Shown here one piece after another: positions 40,675-52,627 of a stretch of DNA of 64,000 nucleotides. The notes beneath the pieces were generated by a model, which was given only the letters and a program-made list of their open reading frames with translations, searched no databases and was not told where the DNA came from. The DNA lies in contig NC_011899.1 of assembly GCF_000020485.1 (NCBI RefSeq), positions 2,364,501-2,428,500 of the forward strand. Direction: 5' to 3'. How positions within the stretch are numbered: the stretch's first letter is position 1; every line of letters begins with the position of its first letter. This DNA is from Halothermothrix orenii H 168 (lineage in GTDB: Bacteria; Bacillota; Halanaerobiia; Halanaerobiales; Halothermotrichaceae). A program made the translations under genes and the position numbers.

Positions 40675-42282
40675 TTAATGCCTGAAATGCCTTCTCCCGG
40701 TAAAGACCATGGCAATTTTATGGTCATTGGCAGCTTCAATCACCTGGTCATCCCTGATTGAACCACCGGGCTGGATGATAGCCTTAATCCCTCTGGCAGC
40801 CGCCTCCTCAATGGCATCCGGGAAGGGGAAGAAAGCATCTGAAGCAACAACCCCGCCTTCCTGCCTTCCTTCTGACTTACGACCGGCAATAATCATGGCA
40901 TCCACCCGGCTCATCTGCCCGGCCCCGACACCTACTACCATCTCGTCTTTAGCCATAACGATTGCATTGGACTTAACATGTTTTACAACCTTCCAGGCAA
41001 ACAACAAATCCCTTAACTGTCCTTCAGTTGGTTTCACTTCAGTAACTATCTTAAGGTCGTCCTCATTTATAATAGCAAGGTCCCGTTCCTGAACAAGTAA
41101 ACCACCGGTAACTTTCTTCATGTCATAGCCAGGCTTCTCCCGGTTAATAAAAAGATCTCCTGTCCTTAAAAGCCTGACATTTTTCCATCTATTTTTAAGG
41201 ATTTCGAGAGCCTCCGTCATATAGTCAGGGGCAATAACAACCTCGACAAACTTATCTTTGCCGGCAATCTCCCGGGCTACTTCTGGTGAAACTTCACGGT
41301 TTAAGGCCACAATACTACCAAAAGCTGACAGGGGATCCCCGGCATGAGCCTTCCGGTAAGCCTCTTCCAGGGTATCGGCTACTGCCATTCCACAGGGATT
41401 GGCATGTTTAATAACTGCAGCGGCTGGCCGGTCGGTAAACTCCTTAACCAGTTCCAGGGCCCCGTTAGCATCATTGATATTGTTAAAGGAAAGCTCCTTG
41501 CCATGAAGCTTTTCAGCAGTAGTAATAGAGGGCTCTTTTAAATTTGTTTCCCGGTAAAAAACAGCCCTCTGATGAGGGTTTTCCCCATACCTCAAATCCT
41601 GTTTCTTTATATAATTTAAGCTAATAACTTCCGGGAAAACAATATCTGCTTCTTCTTTACTGCTTTTAGCCTTACTGGTCTCTTTTTTGTCCCGTTCATT
41701 TCTACCCTGTAGATAATCAAAAATAGTTGTATCATACTCTGCTGTCATTCTAAAAGCCTTAACTGCCAGCCTTTGCCTTGTTTTTAAAGAGAGGTCTCCA
41801 TCATTTTCATTAAGTTCAGTAAGAATTTTATCATAATCATCAGGATCGGTCACTACAGCAACACTACAATAGTTTTTAGCAGCTGATCTAATCATACTGG
41901 GACCTCCGATATCAATATTTTCAATGGCTTCCTCCAGGGTTACTCCCGGACGGCTAATGGTCTCAGCAAAGGGGTAAAGGTTGACCACTACCATATCAAT
42001 GGGTTTAATCCCCTGCTCTTCAAGCTGTTCCATATGACCGGAGTTATCCCTTAAAGCCAGAAGACCACCGTGAATAGCCGGATGAAGGGTTTTAACCCGT
42101 CCATCCATCATTTCAGGAAAACGGGTTATCTGGCTGACATCAATAACCTCCAGACCACCTTCACGGAGTTTACGGGCCGTACCCCCGGTGGATATTATTT
42201 CATAACCCAGGTCAACAAGCCCCCGGGCCATTTTCACTATTCCCCTCTTATCAGAAACACTCAATAAGGCTCTTTTAGCCAT
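40675..42282 (-). CDS. purH: Bifunctional AICAR formyltransferase/IMP cyclohydrolase PurH
   Basis: 535 residues; the last two steps of IMP synthesis. The N-terminal cyclohydrolase (about 1-195) has RALLSVSDKRGIVKMA and VKTLHPAIHGGLLA. The C-terminal transformylase begins with LRYGENPHQRAVFYRE and has IKHANPCGMA and AGQMSRVDA. A Lys/Glu-rich insertion of about 25 residues (NERDKKETSKAKSSKEEADI) joins the two domains and is longer than usual. It is the last pur gene of the operon; purD does not follow. A 50-bp tandem array separates it from purN. Confidence 0.96.
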   Translation of the reverse strand: MAKRALLSVSDKRGIVKMARGLVDLGYEIISTGGTARKLREGGLEVIDVSQITRFPEMMDGRVKTLHPAIHGGLLALRDNSGHMEQLEEQGIKPIDMVVVNLYPFAETISRPGVTLEEAIENIDIGGPSMIRSAAKNYCSVAVVTDPDDYDKILTELNENDGDLSLKTRQRLAVKAFRMTAEYDTTIFDYLQGRNERDKKETSKAKSSKEEADIVFPEVISLNYIKKQDLRYGENPHQRAVFYRETNLKEPSITTAEKLHGKELSFNNINDANGALELVKEFTDRPAAAVIKHANPCGMAVADTLEEAYRKAHAGDPLSAFGSIVALNREVSPEVAREIAGKDKFVEVVIAPDYMTEALEILKNRWKNVRLLRTGDLFINREKPGYDMKKVTGGLLVQERDLAIINEDDLKIVTEVKPTEGQLRDLLFAWKVVKHVKSNAIVMAKDEMVVGVGAGQMSRVDAMIIAGRKSEGRQEGGVVASDAFFPFPDAIEEAAARGIKAIIQPGGSIRDDQVIEAANDHKIAMVFTGRRHFRH

Positions 42283-42312: not shown

Positions 42313-42512
42313 GGTTGTGCCACAGGCACTCCGTATTTAAAAAAACCGTACAGGAACATTATGGTTGTGCCACAGGCACTCCGTATTTAAAAAAACCGTA
42401 CAGGAACATTATGGTTGTGCCACAGGCACTCCGTATTTAAAAAAACCGTACAGGAACATTATGGTTGTGCCACAGGCACTCCGTATTTAAAAAAACCGTA
42501 CAGGAACATTAT
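42313..42512. repeat. Four perfect 50-bp tandem repeats between purN and purH
   Basis: Units start at 42313, 42363, 42413 and 42463 and are identical over 50 bases; a fifth copy begins (GGTTG) and stops. On the transcribed strand each unit holds GTGCC-TGT-GGCAC (a small hairpin), TTCCTGTACGG and seven T residues. The purN stop codon lies in the first transcribed unit. There are no unique spacers, so this is not a CRISPR array. Confidence 0.97.
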
Positions 42513-43126
42513 GGTTGATTTATATATACCTTTCTACCCTGTATTGTTAACCTGTTTTCAGCAAAAAGCTGAATAGCTTCCGGGTAAAGTTCATGTTCTT
42601 TCTCCCTTATCCGGGAAGCCAGTCTTTCTTCTGTATCGTCACTGTAAACCGGGACTGGAGCCTGTAAGATGATGGGGCCAGTATCCATTCCTTCATCTAC
42701 AAAATGAACTGTACAACCACTGACCTTAACCCCGTATTCCAGGGCCTGCCTCTGGGCATGAAGCCCCGGAAAACTGGGCAGCAATGAAGGATGTATATTC
42801 ATAATCTTTCCTGAAAACTGATTAATAAAATAGGGGCTTAACAAACGCATAAAGCCGGCCAGGGCTACCAGGTCTATATTCTTTTTATCCAGATAATCCA
42901 GCAATTCCTTCTCATACCCCTGGCGGGAGTTAAAATCAGCTGGATCAATAAAGATATTTTCAATGCCGGCCTTTTCGGCCCTGACCAGGCCATAGGCGTT
43001 CTTTTTGTCACTGATCACCATTTTTAATTCAGCCTCAACCCTGCCAGCTTTAATAGAATCTATAATTGCCTGAAGATTGGTTCCATTCCCGGAAATAAAT
43101 ACAGCCAGATTAATTTTATTGCCCAT
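42509..43126 (-). CDS. purN: Phosphoribosylglycinamide formyltransferase PurN
   Basis: 205 residues; transfers a formyl group from 10-formyltetrahydrofolate to GAR. Marks: AVFISGNGTNLQAIIDS, the catalytic region MNIHPSLLPSFPG with its His, and GCTVHFVDEGMDTGPII. It overlaps purM by 11 bases. The last residue codons and the TAA stop reach into the 50-bp tandem array, so the reading frame's end was shaped by the repeat boundary. Confidence 0.96.
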   Translation of the reverse strand: MGNKINLAVFISGNGTNLQAIIDSIKAGRVEAELKMVISDKKNAYGLVRAEKAGIENIFIDPADFNSRQGYEKELLDYLDKKNIDLVALAGFMRLLSPYFINQFSGKIMNIHPSLLPSFPGLHAQRQALEYGVKVSGCTVHFVDEGMDTGPIILQAPVPVYSDDTEERLASRIREKEHELYPEAIQLFAENRLTIQGRKVYINQP

Positions 43127-44168
43127 TGTAGATAACCACCTTACCCTCTTTTTTACCGATACTATTTATTTCTCCAATATGGTATACTTTTTCTCCCCGG
43201 GCCTTTATATCTGACATAACATTTTCTAATATATCCGGAGAAACAACCAGCACCATACCGATCCCCATATTGAAGGTTCTCTCCATTTCAACTGTAGCAA
43301 TATCCCCCTTGGCCTGAATATAGGTAAATACTGGGGGACACGACCAGCTTTCTCTGTTTACCCTGGCCTGAAGGCCATCAGGAATAATCCGGGCTATATT
43401 TTCCGGCATTCCCCCACCGGTAATATGAGCTATTCCCTTTACTTCATATTTTTCTAGCAACGGAAGAACCACAGGTACATAAATACGGGTTGGTTTTAAA
43501 AGCTCCTCACCAAGGGTACAGTCTAGCTCTTTTATTCTATCATCTACTTTCAACCCCTCTTTTTCAAGAAGTACTTTCCTGACCAGGGAATAACCATTAC
43601 TATGTATCCCAGATGAAGGAAGGCCCAGTAGCTGATCCCCTGCTTTTATTTTCGAACCGGTAATTATATTCTTACGGTCAACGATCCCAACTGCAAAACC
43701 GGCCAGGTCATAGCTCCCCTGCTGATAAAAGCCCGGCATCTCCGCTGTCTCCCCACCGAGCAGGGCAACACCGGCCTGTTTACATCCCCTGGTAATTCCG
43801 GTAATAATCTCCTCTCCGGTCTCGAGCTCAAGTTGCCCGGTAGCCATGTAATCAAGGAAAAAAAGGGGTTTTGCCCCCTGGGCCAGGATATCATTAACAC
43901 ACATGGCTACCAGGTCAATCCCGATGATATCATGTTTATTAACAAGCTGGGCAATTTTCAGTTTAGTACCAACCCCATCGGTTCCAGAGACAAGAACCGG
44001 TTTTTGGTATTGTTTAAAATCAGGGGCAAAAAGCCCCCCAAATCCCCCCACCCCACCGATAACCCCGGGAAGGTGGGTTTCTTTTACTTTATCTTTAATG
44101 CGATCCACAAACTCGTTACCTTTATCAATATTTACCCCCGAATCAGCATAGGTTATGCCCTTTTTCAT
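43116..44168 (-). CDS. purM: Phosphoribosylformylglycinamidine cyclo-ligase PurM
   Basis: 350 residues; ATP-dependent closure of the imidazole ring (FGAM to AIR). Marks: TYADSGVNIDKGNEFV, VSGTDGVGTKLKIA, CVNDILAQGAKPLFFLDY, GGETAEMPGFY, and GLPSSGIHSNGYSLVRK. Ordinary length. It lies 41 bases after purF with an AGGGG ribosome site. Full-length and apparently functional. Confidence 0.97.
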   Translation of the reverse strand: MKKGITYADSGVNIDKGNEFVDRIKDKVKETHLPGVIGGVGGFGGLFAPDFKQYQKPVLVSGTDGVGTKLKIAQLVNKHDIIGIDLVAMCVNDILAQGAKPLFFLDYMATGQLELETGEEIITGITRGCKQAGVALLGGETAEMPGFYQQGSYDLAGFAVGIVDRKNIITGSKIKAGDQLLGLPSSGIHSNGYSLVRKVLLEKEGLKVDDRIKELDCTLGEELLKPTRIYVPVVLPLLEKYEVKGIAHITGGGMPENIARIIPDGLQARVNRESWSCPPVFTYIQAKGDIATVEMERTFNMGIGMVLVVSPDILENVMSDIKARGEKVYHIGEINSIGKKEGKVVIYNGQ

Positions 44169-44209: not shown

Positions 44210-45652
44210 TTATTGTCCTGATTTAATCTCAGGGACGTTTTTTTCTAAAGCCAGTTTCCCATTTCCGGTCCTGGTAGGGTAATCACCCGAAAAACAGGCG
44301 ACACAGCAACCTTTTTCTTTTCTCTCAACAGTAGATAATAATCCCTCGATACTGAGATAGGTTAACGAATCAGCTCCAATTTCCCGGGCAATATCTTTGA
44401 CATTTAGCCGGGAAGCAATTAATTCCTGCCTATTGGAGGTATCAAGACCATAATAACAGGAATGGGTTACCGGAGGTGAACTGACAAAGAGATGAACGTC
44501 CCGGGCCCCGGCCTCTTTAAGCATATTAACGATCTGACGGCTGGTTGTTCCCCTGACAATTGAATCATCTATCAGAGCAATATTCTTCCCCCTTATAATA
44601 TTCTTAATAGGATTTAATTTCATTCTAACCTTCAGATTCCTCATTTCCTGGGTAGGATTAATAAAGGTTCTACCCACATATCTGTTTTTAATAAGGCCAT
44701 ATTGAAACGGAAGGCCGCTTTCTTCAGCAAAACCCTGGGCTGAAGAAATTCCCGAATCAGGTACAGGAACGACTACATCTATTTTTTTCAGGAGGTCACC
44801 GGCTTCCCGGGCCAGCTGCCTCCCCATATCTTTACGGATCAGATGGACGTTATTTCCATTAAAAGAGCTGTCGGGACGGGCAAAATAGATATACTCAAAT
44901 ATACAGAACCGGGGTTCAACCTCCGGATTAAAGGAATAGCTCTGAACACCATTTTCATCTATCACTACCATCTCCCCGGGTTCAATATCCCGTACATATT
45001 CAGCCCCGATTATATTCAGGGCACAGGTTTCTGAAGCCAGGACTATGCCCTCACCCAGCTTTCCCATGACCAGAGGCCTGAAACCCCGGGGATCCCGGAC
45101 GCCAATAAGCTTATCCCTTGTTAAAACTACAAGAGAATAGGCCCCTTCAATTGTTTTTAAACTATCGAGAAGAGCACTGGGGATATCGTTGTATTGAGAA
45201 CGGGCAATAAGGTGGGCAATCACTTCCGTATCCAGGGTAGAATGAAAAACAGAACCCTTTTTCTCGAGGGCAATCCTTAATTCATAACCATTAACAAGGT
45301 TACCATTGTGGGCCAGGGCTACCTGACCCTTGATTGAATTAATCAGGATGGGCTGGGAATTAGCAGCCAGGCTGGAACCGGTAGTTGAATACCTGACATG
45401 ACCAATCCCTGCCCAACCCGACAGGGTCTCAATGATGGATTTATTAAAAACATTATCTACCAGACCCATCCGCTTATAGAGGTTAATCCCTTTATCCTGG
45501 CTTACAGCAATACCGGCACTCTCCTGCCCCCGGTGCTGTAAAGAATGCAACCCGAGGTAGATAAGACTACCGGCATCATTCCTGTCCGGTGAAAAAATAC
45601 CAAATACACCACACTCTTCCCTGGGTTTTCCGCTCATTATTTCATATGGCAT
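44210..45652 (-). CDS. purF: Amidophosphoribosyltransferase PurF
   Basis: 480 residues from ATG 45650-45652 (AGAGG eight bases upstream; GTG 45668-45670 less likely). First committed step: PRPP plus glutamine to phosphoribosylamine. A short propeptide precedes the Cys nucleophile (EECGVFGIF, Cys14 by this start). The PRPP loop is [17 protein letters not shown]-terminal cysteines ([12 protein letters not shown]) fit the Fe-S-containing Bacillus type. Its start overlaps purL by 16 bases. The enzyme uses PRPP, the probable ligand of the leader riboswitch. Confidence 0.96.
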
Positions 45653-47838
45653 GGTATTGTCCTCTCCCACCTATCTTTTATTTCAGTGAGCTCCAGGTCA
45701 ATATAACTATCAATTATTAGTCGGTTCCCACCCGTTTTACCGATATTTCTATATTTTAAGCCAGATTCTTGTAAAACAGATTCCGCCTTTTCTTTATCTC
45801 CAGGTGAAATTGTTATCAATACCCTGGAAGCCGATTCTCCGAATAACATCGCATCAGGCCTTATCTGGAAATCACCCAGCTCAATTATGGCACCGAGATC
45901 CCCGGTGAGACAACATTCAGTAAGAGCTATAGTCAGACCACCTTCGGCACAATCATGGGCAGACTTAACTAACCCCTCCTGGATAAGAGTCAATAAAGAT
46001 GACTGTAACCTCTTTTCTTCTTCAAGGTCAAGAGTCGGGGGTAACCCCCTGTCTTTATCGTGTATTACCGATAAATATTCACTGCCCCCAAGTTCTTCTC
46101 TGGTCTCTCCAATGAGGTAAACTAGATCTCCCTCATCTTTAAAAGCAATATCGGTAGCATACTCCTGCTTTTCCAGTACTCCAATCATACCTACAATTGG
46201 AGTTGGATAAATGGCCTTTCCTTCGTGTTCATTATAAAAGCTGACATTACCACTAACCACCGGTGTGCCGAGGGCCAGGCAGGCCTCACTGATTCCGGCC
46301 ACCGCCTCTTTGAACTGCCAGTAAATTTCTTCTTTCTCGGGATTTCCGAAATTCAGACCATCTGTAATTGCCAGGGGCTGACCACCACTGCAGACTATAT
46401 TCCGGGCTGCCTCGGCCACAGCCAGTTTACCCCCCTGCCTGGGGTCAAGATAAAAATAGCGCCCGTTGGAGTCAGTGGTAACCGCAATAGCCCGTTCAGT
46501 GCCCTTTATCCGTAAAACAGCTGCATCAGATCCGGGTAAGACCATTGTATTGTTCTGGACCATATGATCATACTGACTATAAATCCATTCCTTACTGGCC
46601 AGGTTTGGTGAATCCAGCATTTCCAGCAAAACTTTATTATAATCATCTGGGAGTGGTAACGACTCCAAATCCAGTTTATTCTCCTCATCCAGCCAGGCAG
46701 GCCTCTTACCTTCCCTGACATATTCGGGAGCCTCAGCCAGATAATGGGCTGGCACTTCAGCCACAACATCTTCTCCATTTTTTATCCTTAAAATACCGTC
46801 ATCGGTTACCCGGCCAATAACCCGGGCATTAAGGCCCCAGTGTTTAAAGATCTTTTTAACCTCATCTTCACGCCCTTTTTTAGGGACAACCAGCATTCTC
46901 TCCTGGGATTCCGATAACATAATTTCATAAGGAGTCAGGCCCGGTTCACGCAGGGGAACCTGGCTGACATCCAGCTCCATACCACTACCGGCCCGACTTG
47001 CCATTTCACAGGAAGAACTTATCAGACCTGCTGCCCCCATATCCTGGATACCAACCACTGCATCGGTCTTATATAATTCAAGGCAGGCCTCCAGTAACAG
47101 TTTTTCCATAAAGGGGTCACCAACCTGAACCGAGGGACGCCTTTCCTCCGAATCTTCACTCAGTTCTTCGGAGGCAAAACTGGCCCCCTGGATACCATCC
47201 CGACCTGTGGTTGCACCAACAACCATAACCGGGTTTCCAACACCCCGGGCCACAGCTTTTATGATATCTTTGTGATCAACCAGACCAACACACATGGCAT
47301 TTACAAGAGGATTCCCTTTATAGGCTTTATGAAAATAAGTCTCACCACCGACGGTGGGGATCCCGATACTATTCCCATAGTCACTGATCCCACTGACCAC
47401 CCCTGAAAAAATATATCGAACCCGTTCCTCATCAAGGGGACCAAACCTGAGGGAATCAAGTAAGGCTATAGGGCGGGCTCCCATGGTAAAAATATCCCTG
47501 ATTATACCACCAACACCGGTCGCTGCTCCCTGATAAGGCTCAATGGCAGACGGATGGTTATGACTCTCAATCTTAAAAACAACCGCCTTGTTATCACCGA
47601 TATCGACTATACCGGCATTCTCACCCGGACCCTGAAGGACCTGCTCCCCTTCGGTGGGGAAATTCCTTAAGACTGCTTTGGAATTTTTATAACCACAGTG
47701 TTCGGACCACATAACCCCGAAAAGACCCAGCTCCAGTTCATTGGGCTCTCTCCCCAGTTTTTCAACAATCATGTGATACTCTTTTTCAGTAAGTCCGTGA
47801 AATTTTAGCTTTTCTAATAGTTGTTCCCGGGATTTCAT
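45637..47838 (-). CDS. purL: Phosphoribosylformylglycinamidine synthase II PurL
   Basis: 733 residues; the small PurL type that needs PurQ as glutaminase and PurS as bridge. Marks: [20 protein letters not shown] (in part), [24 protein letters not shown] (in parts), [18 protein letters not shown], and [19 protein letters not shown]-type IQDMGAAG. It overlaps purQ by four bases and purF by 16, giving a tightly coupled central block of the operon. Confidence 0.97.
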
Positions 47839-48542
47839 AGTTTCACACCACCAGCCTTAAGAATTGATTGAAATATTTTAAGTCCATCGTCACTCCCATT
47901 ACCGAGAATGGTTTCACTGGCCCTTTCAGGATGGGGCATAAGCCCAAATACATTATGATTTTTATTGGTAATGCCGGCAATATTACCGATTGAACCATTA
48001 GGATTGGCTTCATCTATAACCTCTCCCCCCGGCGTTGCGTACCTTAATATAATCTGGTTATTTTCCTTCAATTCCTCTAAACCCCTGTCATCTATATAAT
48101 AGTTACCCTCTTTATGGGCAACAGGGAGATTTATTATATCTCCTTTATTGAACTTACCTGTAAAGGGAGTCTTATTATTTTCAACCCTTAAATAAACATA
48201 CCGGCAGTTAAAATTAAGGTGGGCATTATGATGCATGGCCCCGGGCAAAAGCCCTGCCTCCAGTAAAATCTGAAAGCCATTACAGATACCGATTACTAAT
48301 CCTCCCTTTCGGGCAAATTCCTTAACCCGTTCCATAACCGGGGCAAACCTGGCAATGGCGCCTGCCCTGAGGTAATCCCCGTAGGAAAAACCACCGGGGA
48401 TAATGATACAATCATAACCGGCAAGGGAACGATCATCTTCATGCCAGATAAACTCGGTCGGCTCTCCCAGTACCCGGGCAGTCACATGATAACAGTCCCG
48501 GTCACAGTTGGAACCTGGAAATACAATTACTCCAAATTTCAT
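47835..48542 (-). CDS. purQ: Phosphoribosylformylglycinamidine synthase I PurQ (glutaminase)
   Basis: 235 residues; releases ammonia from glutamine for PurL. Class I amidotransferase with nucleophile GICNGFQ and His-Glu in LMPHPERA; the N-terminus [15 protein letters not shown] is typical. It starts 14 bases after the purS stop and overlaps purL by four bases. Confidence 0.97.
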
Positions 48543-48556
48543 AAAACCACTCCCAT

Positions 48557-48811
48557 TTAATTGGCTTTTTTTACTTCAACTTTATAATCTTCGATAACTG
48601 GATTGGCCAGAATTCGGCCGGCGGTCTCCTCAGCCCTTTTAACTACATCCTCCCTGTTTTCTCCCTCCATAAAGAAGGTTATATCTTTACCAACCCTGAC
48701 TTTACTGATATCTTTATAACCCAGGGAATGAAGAGATTTTTCAATGGTACTCCCCTGGGGGTCCAGAATCCCCTCTTTAAGATTTACCTTAACCTCTATC
48801 TTCCAGCGCAT
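48557..48811 (-). CDS. purS: Phosphoribosylformylglycinamidine synthase subunit PurS
   Basis: 84 residues; bridges PurQ and PurL. Family marks: [32 protein letters not shown], and [20 protein letters not shown] precedes the ATG. The 156-bp gap to purC upstream is the largest between the operon's early genes and contains two imperfect 18-bp copies of a CTAAACYAGTTCTA motif (about 48937-48970) but no clear promoter. Confidence 0.96.
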
Positions 48812-48967: not shown

Positions 48968-49672
48968 CTATTTAACCCGGGACCAGACTTCCCGGTAGGC
49001 ATTCTCGACACCGCCTAAATCCCTACGGAAGCGGTCTTTATCAAGCTTTTCTCCACTACTTTTATCCCAGAACCGGCAGGTATCCGGAGATATTTCATCA
49101 GCCAGTAAAATATTACCATTATTCTTCCCAAACTCAAGTTTAAAGTCAACCAGTTCTATACCTTTATTTGAAAGATAATTTCTCAAAATATCGTTAACTT
49201 TAAAACCCATAGCTGTAATTTCCTTAATTTCTTCTTCATCTGCCAGCTTCAGAGCTCTAATGTGTGAATTGTTTAGTAAAGGATCACCCAGGTCATCCCG
49301 CTTATAGTAAAATTCAATAATGGGCTCTTCAAGAACATAACCTTCTTCAAGACCCAGCCGCTTTGAAAGGCTACCGGCCACTATATTCCTGACAACTACT
49401 TCCAGAGGAATTATATCCACATAGGTTGTCAGCTGCTCTCTGTCACCAAGCTTTTTTATAAAATGGGTTTTAACTCCATTATCCTCGAGTAGATTAAATA
49501 GAGCTGCACTTATCTGGGCATTATAAAATCCTTTTTCCTGGATAGTTCCCTTTTTCTTCCCATTAAAAGCAGTAGCATCATCCTTATACTCAATAATAAC
49601 CCTGTCTTTGTCCTCGGTCCGATAAACCTTTTTAGCCTTTCCTTCATAAAGCATTTCCAGTTTTGTTAACAT
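48968..49672 (-). CDS. purC: SAICAR synthase PurC
   Basis: 234 residues; ATP-dependent joining of CAIR and aspartate. Marks: [39 protein letters not shown], and [10 protein letters not shown] with [15 protein letters not shown] overlaps the purB stop as TAATG, so the two are coupled. The substrate-producing genes purE/purK are not in this operon. Confidence 0.97.
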
Positions 49673-51060
49673 TACAAACCCCTCTCCTTCCTGATTTTAG
49701 TCACAATCTCTTCAGTCCTTTCCCGGGCAATACCGGTATACTGCTCCGGATTATAGAGAATATCCTTCTGGCGTTTATCGAGTTTAGCCAGGTAGGTTTC
49801 AATTTCTTTGTCGGCTTTAATTAATTCAACCAGATCCTTACCCTCTTTATCAGCCTTCAGGGTAAGTTTTCTTACATATTCATGGGCATCGGGGTGGCCA
49901 GCAGCTGCCAGGAATATATAGAGTGGTTCAGCAATTATCATATTTTTACTTAAGTTAAAATTATTCTTCATTTTCCGGGAATTAATTTTCATCCGTGAAG
50001 ATACTTTATACAGCCGGTCTACCGTCATCATTAATCCTGAGGCTATTTCAGCAATAAAACGACCTGAGGCTGAATTGGTTAGATCTCTCTGGTGTTCAGA
50101 AAGCTGATCCAGATACATGGTCACCATCCGGGGCATAAAGGTTTTCCACATGCTTTTAACATTCTCATAATTAATGGGGTTTCTTTTATGGGGCATGGTC
50201 GAAGAACCGACCTGGTCTTTAGCAAAATACTCCCCTGTTTCCCCTATTTCTGTCCTCTGCAGGTGCCTCATATCATCACTGAAGTCAGCCAGAACCCCAA
50301 AAACAGTAATCAGGGAATGGACATAGTCGGTCATATATTCGGGAGGGACTATCTGGGTGGAAACGGGAGCGGGCTTCAGGCCCAGTTCCTTTAATACTTC
50401 TTTTTCGAATTCTTCCGGATCTTCAAAAAATAGACTGCTGGCATTATAGGCTCCTACCGCCCCGGCCATCTTACCACACAGGCTGGAAACCACCTTCTCC
50501 AGGTTAACAATCCGCTCATGAAGCCGGCTGGCATAATAAGCCATAACCAGCCCAAAGGTAAGGGGTTCAGCATGCTGCCCGTGGGTACGGCCAATCTGGA
50601 GTGTATCCCTTTCCTGTTCGGCCAGATTAAGCCACTGCTCCAGTAACCGCTCCAGTGCCGGTACAATCAATTTTTCTGTAGCTTCTTTATATCGAAGGCT
50701 ATTGGCCGTATCTACAATATCAAAGGAAGTTGCCGAAAGATGGACAAAGGGACGGGCCTCAGCACTTATTTTCTTTCGAATACAGTTAACAAGAGCCCTT
50801 ATATTATGCCTGGTCCGGGCCTCTTCTTCATATACTTCCCCTACCTTTATCCCTTTAACAGCCTCTTCAACCTCCTTAACCACATCAAAACTACATACCC
50901 CACGCCCGGCCAGGGCCTTAACCAGGGCCAGCTCAACTCTAGCCTGAAAATAAATTGTAGCCTTTTCCGAAAAGTATTTGCCGAGGTCATTAAACAGATC
51001 TTTTTTTAAAGAATATCGGTGATCAAGTGGACAGATATTTTCAAAAATATTTCGTTCCAT
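49672..51060 (-). CDS. purB: Adenylosuccinate lyase PurB
   Basis: 462 residues from ATG 51058-51060, preceded by AAGGGAGGG; the longer open frame has no ribosome site. It acts twice in purine synthesis (SAICAR to AICAR, adenylosuccinate to AMP). Marks: RTHGQHAEP, signature [12 protein letters not shown], and Lys/His residues of the fumarase-aspartase superfamily. It is the first gene behind the guanine/PRPP-type leader. Confidence 0.97.
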
Positions 51061-51218
51061 TATACCCTCCCTTTCCCTGAAAACCTGTAATATGATAAGA
51101 ATGAAATAATATTGTCTGAAAATCCTTACCAGACAACCATGAACGATAGCCATTATAAATCAGATTTTAGAAAATCAGTTATGAAACATTTTAATTTTGT
51201 GAAAAACACTGAAATATC

Positions 51219-51281
51219 AAAAAAGCCCGGACAGATAGATCCCCTTAAAATAACACAGAGGAACCTACCCGTCCAGGCTTT
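51219..51281 (-). terminator. Long intrinsic terminator in the purine operon leader
   Basis: On the minus strand the arm starting AAAGCCTGGACGG (51281 downward) can pair over about 23 positions, several G-U, with the arm ending CTGTCCGGGCTTT (51222), followed by TTTTTT. Its 5' arm includes the conserved AAAAGCC 3' end of the ykkC-class aptamer, so ligand binding there should block terminator formation. Confidence 0.88.
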
Positions 51282-51377
51282 TATCCTTCCGGTGTAGTAT
51301 ACACCAAAAGTGCATACCTGCACCACTCGGACCAGACCAGGTCAGCAGACAGCTGAACAGCGGAACCCTAGGTGCAC
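51268..51377 (-). ncRNA. ykkC-class riboswitch, PRPP type by context
   Basis: Minus-strand RNA contains the ykkC hallmarks in order: CTAGGGTTCCG (P1a side), CTGGTCTGGTCCGAG, and CACCGGAAGGATAAAAGCC at the 3' side. These conserved elements are shared by guanidine-I, ppGpp and PRPP subtypes. Location in front of de novo purine genes and directly after a guanine aptamer is the published arrangement of PRPP riboswitches, so PRPP is the expected ligand. PRPP binding should sequester the 5' terminator arm and turn the operon on. Subtype cannot be proved by eye. Confidence 0.85.
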
Positions 51378-51380
51378 TTC

Positions 51381-51449
51381 CCCCGTAGTCAGATGGTTTA
51401 CGGCCATCTGGTAGAGACTTGTGGACCATATTTCCACAGTTATACGAGG
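51381..51449 (-). ncRNA. Guanine-type purine riboswitch aptamer
   Basis: All three helices can be drawn: P1 CCTCGT/ACGGGG, P2 TGTGGA/TCCACA with loop AATATGG, P3 CAGATGG/CCATCTG with loop CCGTAAA. The junction reads AGTCTCTACC and ends GACTAC; the base that selects the ligand is C (GAC, not GAT), so guanine or hypoxanthine is predicted, not adenine. It abuts the ykkC-class aptamer with only three bases between them. Guanine binding should favour shut-down. Confidence 0.95.
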
Positions 51450-51471
51450 TAATAATTTTCAGTTTGTTTTC

Positions 51472-51501
51472 ATTATACCGAACCCAGCTAACAAATGTCA
51501 A
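51472..51501 (-). promoter_or_regulatory. Sigma-A promoter of the purine operon
   Basis: TTGACA (51496-51501) and TATAAT (51472-51477) on the minus strand with an 18-base spacer, both perfect consensus hexamers. Transcription should begin about 51465, some 16 bases before the guanine aptamer. No PurR box is obvious, consistent with riboswitch control. Confidence 0.92.
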
Positions 51502-51571
51502 TAATTTTTTCGAACATTTTATTGTTATTTTAGTTTAACGTTCGCTTTTGATATTCAACCTTATTTATTTA

Positions 51572-52516
51572 TCATAAACTATTATTCTTCCTGATACCCT
51601 CAATAAGGTCTGCTACCTTTTTGTTTTTCAATTCCGGTACCATAATCTCCATAAGCTGATAAATATATAGAAACTCATCAATCAGGCTTTCCTTAATATC
51701 TTCATCGGGAACCCCTGCTTTTTCCATAACTTCTTCCATGGTTTGACCTGTTTTGTTAAAGGATTTTAATAACCTGTTAAAGGGATTAGGGTTCCCACGG
51801 CCAGACCCATCCTCTTCTCTAAGCCGATCAGATAACTTCTGTCTTTCCCGCCTCAGCAAAATAACACTGACAGCTTCATCCATGGGCATATGAAGATACT
51901 TTCGGTAGAGGTTAACACTCTCTTTGGTTTCCTTACGATTCAAATTATATTTAAGAACTACATCCAGTAACTGTTTCAATTTGGTTGGGTCACCGGTCCG
52001 ACTGGCCAGGGCTTTGGCAATACTTATATGGGATAAGGTAAGGGGAGAATCTTCATCTATTACCTCTTCCCGATATCTAGGGGGTACTTCCAGGATATTT
52101 AGCCACTCGGTCAGGGTTGTCCGGGGAACCCCCAGCTTTTTGCTGGCTTCCTTCTTGGTAAGGTTATTTTCATCTATAAACCTCTTTATTGAAAGGGCCC
52201 TCTCCAGGGGATTTAAATCTTCCCGCTGCAGGTTTTCAATAAGCTGAATTTGTTTTAACAACGACTCTCCCGTATCTTCTTTTAAAATCAGGGCAGCTAT
52301 TTTCTCCCGACTACTTGATTTTTTAACAGCCCGATAACGCCTTTCTCCAGCAACAAGCCTGTATTCATCCCCGTTCTTTTTAACGATTACAGGCTGGAGC
52401 TGCCCCACTTCATCGATAGACCGGGCCAGTTGTTTTATGCCCTCTGCATCAAACTCCTGACGGGACTGATTTTTATCTATCTTAATCTTATCCAGGGGAA
52501 TCCGGGCAAAATCCAT
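51572..52516 (-). CDS. ParB/Spo0J-family protein, solitary
   Basis: 314 residues from ATG 52514-52516 (AAGGTGG upstream). N-terminal ParB/Srx-type CTPase-like domain: IDKNQSRQEFDAEGIKQLA, QLQPVIVKK, LVAGERRYRAVK and ENLQREDLNPLERA. Central helix-turn-helix: TKKEASKKLGVPRTTLTEWL. The C-terminal part is helical and not the short canonical dimer domain. There is no parA, noc or gidB gene next to it, and no parS consensus is evident nearby, so it may be a second ParB-like DNA-binding protein rather than the oriC-proximal segregation protein. Confidence 0.88.
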   Translation of the reverse strand: MDFARIPLDKIKIDKNQSRQEFDAEGIKQLARSIDEVGQLQPVIVKKNGDEYRLVAGERRYRAVKKSSSREKIAALILKEDTGESLLKQIQLIENLQREDLNPLERALSIKRFIDENNLTKKEASKKLGVPRTTLTEWLNILEVPPRYREEVIDEDSPLTLSHISIAKALASRTGDPTKLKQLLDVVLKYNLNRKETKESVNLYRKYLHMPMDEAVSVILLRRERQKLSDRLREEDGSGRGNPNPFNRLLKSFNKTGQTMEEVMEKAGVPDEDIKESLIDEFLYIYQLMEIMVPELKNKKVADLIEGIRKNNSL

Positions 52517-52627
52517 GGTATACCACCTTCCCATTCTTATATAATTATATCTTTTATTTATTTGTTCTACCTGAGAAAATTATTTCCTGCTTACAGGATG
52601 GATTCCGTTTACCCCTTCCAGAACCTC

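Follow-up and report, generated by a model that had tools for sequence, protein, structure and literature searches.

Organization of the purB operon and its leader

The DNA analysed in the present study, referred to below as the window, is a 64,000-nucleotide stretch of the genome of Halothermothrix orenii H 168, which consists of one contig of 2,578,146 bp. On the minus strand of the window lies a run of nine genes of purine synthesis, in the order purB, purC, purS, purQ, purL, purF, purM, purN and purH, and matches to TIGRFAM-type profiles bear out the count of nine, from purB through to purH, that was given in the initial annotation of this DNA. The first gene, purB (49672–51060; TIGR00928, 331 bits against a cut-off of 326), encodes adenylosuccinate lyase and has its most probable start at 51060, where the ribosome-binding site GGGAGGG precedes it, and not at the first ATG of the ORF (open reading frame) at 51153. 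It is followed by purC (48968–49672, TIGR00081), purS (48557–48811, TIGR00302), purQ (47835–48542, TIGR01737), purL (45637–47838, TIGR01736), purF (44210–45670, TIGR01134), purM (43116–44168, TIGR00878), purN (42509–43126, TIGR00639) and the last gene of the run, purH (40675–42282, TIGR00355).

The leader of this operon is likewise read from the minus strand and is flanked by purB on one side and by a gene for a ParB/Noc-like protein (51572–52534) on the other. The control region reaches upstream to about position 51549, and the ParB/Noc-family gene, which lies on the same strand, ends only ~22 bp before the PurBox-like sites described below. In addition, a perfect 7-bp inverted repeat (TTGTCTG-N11-CAGACAA, 51136–51112) lies in the leader downstream of the terminator and ahead of purB, and this repeat had no match in Rfam.

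The leader had been described as the single control point of the whole purine operon, and neither part of this description is supported. The purD, purE and purA genes and a second purB all lie elsewhere, and an operator for the repressor PurR is very probably present at the same promoter. Both purD and purE (G000:C1:2520937-2522818) are found ~105 kb away within the run purB2-purA-purD-purE on the minus strand (G000:C1:2517000-2527500; L292: 3920-8529), where purB2 encodes a canonical adenylosuccinate lyase, the second of the genome, with 33% identity to the product of purB in the window, and where an Rfam search found no riboswitch.

The promoter and the guanine aptamer

Transcription of the leader is predicted to start from a perfect sigma-70-type promoter, in which the −35 box TTGACA (51501–51496) and the −10 box TATAAT (51477–51472) agree with the consensus at 12 of 12 positions and are separated by a spacer of 18, in line with the consensus promoter of the initial annotation. 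A search of the window with Rfam then places a purine aptamer at 51467–51366 (RF00167; 89.2 bits against a gathering threshold of 37, E=6.4e-15), which can be delimited from P1 to P1 as 51381–51449 on the minus strand. According to the pair list from the fold, P1 is formed by 51449–51443 with 51387–51381. The selector position is a C (51388, within GACTACG), where a U would mean adenine, and both this C and the score on the Rfam purine model agree with the guanine specificity that had been assigned to this element. The leader of the Bacillus subtilis pur operon also contains a guanine riboswitch, which the guanine aptamer here resembles; that leader is not known to have a PRPP aptamer, whereas here PRPP would be sensed by RNA too.

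The second aptamer is most probably of the PRPP type

Immediately downstream, Rfam reports an aptamer of the ykkC fold at 51382–51268 under the name Guanidine-I (RF00442), with a score of 64.5 bits that lies just above the gathering threshold of 63. No PRPP or ppGpp family was among the Rfam matches to the leader, even at E values up to 5, and further RNA families gave chance matches only within the same limit. The Guanidine-I label is assigned because no PRPP model is among the Rfam matches; here it is a naming artefact that says only ‘ykkC fold’ and, in its present form, it misnames the leaders of purine operons.

The subtype was assessed with two covariance models, of which R1 represents subtype 2b and was built on 31 tandem loci, none of them from the order, and R2 represents guanidine-I riboswitches and drew on RF00442 loci of the phylum, namely the 25 best among those with definable limits. 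The aptamer of the window (51255–51385, minus strand) scored 93.6 bits on R1 (E=2.6e-24) and 45.8 bits on R2, which puts subtype 2b ahead by 48 bits, whereas three held-out guanidine-I controls (L147, L167 and L253) scored 104.5, 86 and 81.9 bits on R2 against 51.8, 36.3 and 33.8 bits on R1. It had been stated beforehand that a covariance search returning guanidine-I would count against a PRPP aptamer, and formally RF00442 does return it, but the contest between the two models overturns that result.

Residue-level markers point the same way. When residues are numbered by reference to the primers given in PMC6031431, position 49 of the aptamer is a U (51325), whereas the guanidine-I set has mostly A and in a few cases G, and the tandem loci nearly all have C or U. 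Position 96 is a G (51273), G104 and G105 correspond to 51265 and 51264, and the PRPP-contacting residues that could be placed (G48, G96 and G104) are all present. The window reads ACACCG where guanidine-I riboswitches have ACACGG, and the conserved ends of the P0 helix are present as in the tandem loci and as published, with P0 formed by 51383–51378 and 51263–51258 (minus strand; pair list from the fold). A guanidine pocket has A46 and lacks P0; in the window, a U replaces the A and P0 is present. The published markers of PRPP aptamers are a pyrimidine at position 49, G96 and the P0 helix, and the G96A exchange switches the specificity between PRPP and ppGpp about 40000-fold (PMC6031431).

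The possibility that this element is a guanidine-I riboswitch, as its Rfam name implies, thus draws on the RF00442 score and is opposed by the 48-bit deficit on the guanidine-I model, by the U in place of A at the guanidine marker position, by the purine genes downstream and the adjoining guanine aptamer, and by the finding that a tested subtype-2b RNA does not bind guanidine (PMC5912903); we regard it as hardly credible. With true guanidine-I riboswitches (RF00442), the element shares the overall ykkC fold, but differs from them in the pocket residues, the P0 ends, the gene context and its score.

A second alternative is a ppGpp sensor (subtype 2a), and R1 is blind to the difference between PRPP and ppGpp, as a ppGpp-like control situated before ilvE scores 86.3 bits on this model. 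The distinction rests therefore on G96 and on the gene context. This control (L265, 2279-2406, minus strand) is a ykkC aptamer whose position 96 is an A, the residue to be expected in a natural ppGpp riboswitch, and it can serve as an internal control. The aptamer of the window instead carries the G that decides for PRPP over ppGpp (PMC6031431), and it stands in tandem with a guanine aptamer in the context of a purine operon, so that a ppGpp ligand appears very improbable. Slightly less probable still is an intact element of subtype 2c or 2d with another ligand, an idea that gains from the closeness of 2c to 2a and 2b (PMC5912903) and loses from the presence of G48, G96 and G104, from a gene neighbourhood that is that of 2b, and from the occurrence of 2c and 2d before NUDIX and phn_DUF6 genes. 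These three readings of the second aptamer were rejected on model scores, marker residues and gene context. Given U49, G96, P0 and the model scores, the second aptamer is, as judged from its sequence, of the PRPP type by every published marker that could be applied here, which is the subtype that the initial annotation had deduced for a ykkC-class element from its context.

Overlapping helices and a shared terminator

Only three bases (GAA, 51380–51378) separate the P1 helices of the guanine and ykkC aptamers, exactly as had been noted, and three further nucleotides (51381–51383, minus strand) are common to the 3′ strand of the guanine P1 and the 5′ strand of the PRPP P0. The fold also places an intrinsic terminator at 51219–51282 (minus strand) with a tract of six U residues (51224–51219). 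Its energy of −38.4 kcal/mol compares with −15.6±2.5 kcal/mol for shuffled sequences (z=−9.1), of which none equals it. The terminator stem had been described as ~23 bp long and as sharing the 3′ end of the ykkC aptamer; the sharing was confirmed, whereas the length is in fact 24 uninterrupted pairs. As the 3′ strand of P0 and the region of G96 lie inside the 5′ arm of the terminator, P0 and the terminator compete for one strand. The guanine aptamer is thus situated directly upstream of the PRPP aptamer, with one terminator that overlaps the PRPP aptamer and none between the two aptamers.

Forced folds of the aptamer region gave near-equal energies of −67.7 kcal/mol with P1 and −67.3 kcal/mol with P0, values that take no account of ligands, tertiary contacts or folding kinetics. 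With the terminator arm included, and with the same factors ignored, the fold with P1 (−105.8 kcal/mol) is close to the minimum free energy of −106.1 kcal/mol, whereas the fold with P0 (−82.3 kcal/mol) costs 24 kcal/mol. As P1 is nearly free and P0 is costly when the terminator is formed, termination can go together with guanine binding but not with PRPP binding. The overlap between P1 and P0 is conserved: of 52 tandem sequences, 49 have one of exactly 2 nt when a fixed measure is applied. A crude terminator test was passed by 40 of 79 tandem loci, although its rule for the stem end and the T-rich tail looked unreliable on the listed failures and the figure was accordingly set aside.

The leader is predicted to bind both ligands and to switch. 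While transcription is under way, binding of guanine would lock P1 of the first aptamer, which would deprive P0 of the second aptamer of three bases and leave the 3′ strand of P0 free, so that the terminator could form and the transcript would end. Binding of PRPP would instead stabilize P0, which would break the guanine P1 and remove one arm of the terminator, allowing read-through even with guanine present (IMPLY logic). The mutually exclusive P1 and P0 and the shared terminator thus favour the proposal, made in the initial annotation, that guanine should switch the operon off and PRPP switch it on. A competing-helix model of this kind has been proposed for Thermoanaerobacter mathranii (PMC6031431), and an IMPLY gate has been demonstrated for Bacillus megaterium (PMC5912903).

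Tandem guanine–PRPP riboswitches have been described for B. megaterium codA and for T. mathranii (PMC5912903, PMC6031431), with 127 examples listed in 2018 and 192 in PMC9481103. The leader of H. orenii shares with them the order of the aptamers, the near-zero spacing, the overlap between P1 and P0, the one shared terminator and the purine genes downstream, but differs in a spacing of 13 nt between the cores (usually 14 nt; a trait of the order as a whole), in having purB as the first gene and in a pair of PurBoxes at the promoter. The riboswitch is therefore an ordinary and sound member of the published class, of which it provides one more example; what could matter is the layering of controls considered next.

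PurBox-like sites at the promoter

Two PurBox-like sites lie upstream of the −35 box. Site 1 (AAAAGCGAACGTT, 51537–51549, minus strand) matches AWWWCCGAACWWT, which we take to be the PurBox consensus and used for scoring, at 11 of 13 positions, and site 2, which is inverted (TTTTTCGAACATT on the plus strand, 51506–51518), also matches at 11 of 13. Together they form an inverted pair of 13-bp boxes, of which Markov shuffles would give ~0.01 per 64 kb. In B. subtilis, PurBoxes are 14-bp sites with a central CGAA, separated by 16–17 bp and located shortly before the −35 box (PMC8789054), and the pair in the window is similarly arranged, with its boxes 18 bp apart and ending 4 bp before TTGACA. 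The two systems have in common two inverted PurBoxes just upstream of −35 and a PurR with a PRPP motif. The stretch between the two promoter boxes contains a weaker half-site (9 of 13; 51473–51485), again at a distance of 18 bp from the next site, which makes three sites at a regular spacing of ~31 bp; this third site may have arisen by chance.

A Bacillus-type PurR is encoded in the genome (G000:C1:2323132-2323920; TIGR01743, 356 bits against a cut-off of 258.7), and it matches a chain of the Pur operon repressor (1p4a, E=1.4e-80) with the PRPP motif IDDFMKAGGT aligned. PurR exceeds the cut-off in only 2 of the 38 genomes of the order, and in the other of these (G030) no PurBox pair was found at its tandem riboswitch. 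In H. orenii, PurBox-like pairs are present at all three purine promoters examined and are each followed by TTGAC. One of these belongs to the only other purine riboswitch of the genome (L229, G000:C1:539313-540930; 84.3 bits), which precedes a permease of the xanthine/uracil family and has a pair with 12 and 11 matches of 13, set 17 bp apart, ahead of its promoter; at purB2-purA-purD-purE, the pair is weaker and degenerate and stands directly before a TTGACA promoter. Genome-wide, the pattern CGAAC-N19-27-GTTCG occurs in four places, against four for a reversed-pattern control. Two of the four directly precede the only two purine riboswitches of the genome, and the other two lie inside long reading frames. 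As the count equals that of the control, the argument is one of location and spacing, not of number.

The leader promoter thus very probably contains a PurR operator, which PurR is predicted to occupy. When PRPP is scarce, PurR bound to the inverted PurBoxes would block initiation, and PRPP would therefore have two effects of the same sign, one on initiation by way of a protein and one on termination by way of RNA. A PurR regulon of three promoters would also tie the split pathway together. On this sequence evidence, we consider it highly likely that a tandem guanine–PRPP riboswitch acting by transcription attenuation heads purBCSQLFMNH and that PurR very probably represses the promoter in front of it as well.

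Recurrence of the combination in other lineages

The same combination was sought in those tandem loci whose upstream sequence was long enough, 82 in all with the window counted, and a PurBox-like pair was present in 12 of them, where 0.14 loci were expected in shuffles; among control windows, 3 of 1453 had such a pair. With boxes of at least 10/13, there were 12 pairs at a gap of 18 and one at a gap of 58, and the pairs at a gap of 18 end 2–5 bp before a TTGAC −35 box. Besides H. orenii, the hosts include Sporomusa (three records), Tumebacillus (two) and a MAG (metagenome-assembled genome) of the Alicyclobacillaceae.

The locus could also be read as the published guanine–PRPP gate alone, with an inactive PurR and a PurBox-like pair that is a relic or due to chance. 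In most relatives in the order, indeed, the tandem is present but PurR and PurBoxes are not, and the genome-wide count of the pattern gives no excess over its reversed control. Against this, the spacing of the pair is exactly 18 bp and the pair adjoins the −35 box, such pairs occur at each of the three purine promoters, and their frequency among tandem loci far exceeds that in shuffles, so that the gate alone seems an unlikely account of the locus. We therefore favour composite control, in which a PurR operator and a tandem guanine–PRPP riboswitch would act on one purine promoter with PRPP read twice, and consider its recurrence in several lineages of Firmicutes likely.

No paper naming both ‘PRPP riboswitch’ and ‘PurR’ was found in the searchable literature outside subscription journals, and the two main papers on the tandem do not mention PurR. 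Composite control, which was not found in that literature, is a well-supported prediction from the sequence. In Bacillus, (p)ppGpp is an anti-inducer of PurR and holds it on DNA (PMC8789054), whereas the tandem gate has been proposed to promote purine synthesis in the stringent response, when PRPP piles up (PMC5912903). The two layers would thus oppose each other under amino-acid starvation and, if this is true, loci with both layers make the purpose of the RNA gate directly testable.

Distribution and variants of the tandem arrangement

A search of GTDB contigs with a pattern of guanine core and ykkC core gave a sharp peak in the spacing between the two, which was 14 nt in 65 matches and 13 nt in 8, the rest being chance scatter. 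Nine matches were found in viral contigs, none with the length of 30–31 bases of true tandems, and these are therefore attributed to chance. The core spacing of the window, 13 nt, is also that of many members of the order (L171–L248; 12 nt in one copy of G015), as opposed to 14 nt elsewhere, and the overlap between P1 and P0 is shifted accordingly. Of 38 genomes of the order, 33 contain a match to R1, and for 41 of the 44 matches a purine aptamer lies directly alongside. The gene behind these tandems is in most cases purD (followed by purE, purB and others), in one case purE and in another purS, and second copies stand before a permease.

The position of purB as first gene had been singled out as notable, and this holds for tandems but not for ykkC aptamers in general. 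Among 62 sampled tandem loci with a readable first gene, this was a permease in 27, xpt in 13, purE in 10, purD in six and others in a few, and purB in none, whereas purB came first at 12 of 38 further ykkC loci, all of them without an adjacent guanine aptamer. A singlet PRPP riboswitch before purB is known from Heliobacterium modesticaldum (PMC5912903), where the aptamer likewise precedes purB and competes with a terminator, but where the guanine aptamer is absent. A start with purB is nothing out of the ordinary for a singlet, but it is for a tandem. The idea that it represents a special design was rejected, as purB comes first here because purD and purE lie elsewhere.

Two variants were observed among relatives. 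In G013, a genome of the same order, a tandem-type ykkC aptamer before a permease (L173/L236; L173:1488-1617) has G at position 49 and an altered guanine core, and this copy is possibly a specificity variant or a decayed copy. In two relatives of the same class (L139 and L140), the tandem PRPP aptamers are 196–220 nt long owing to an extended P2 arm.
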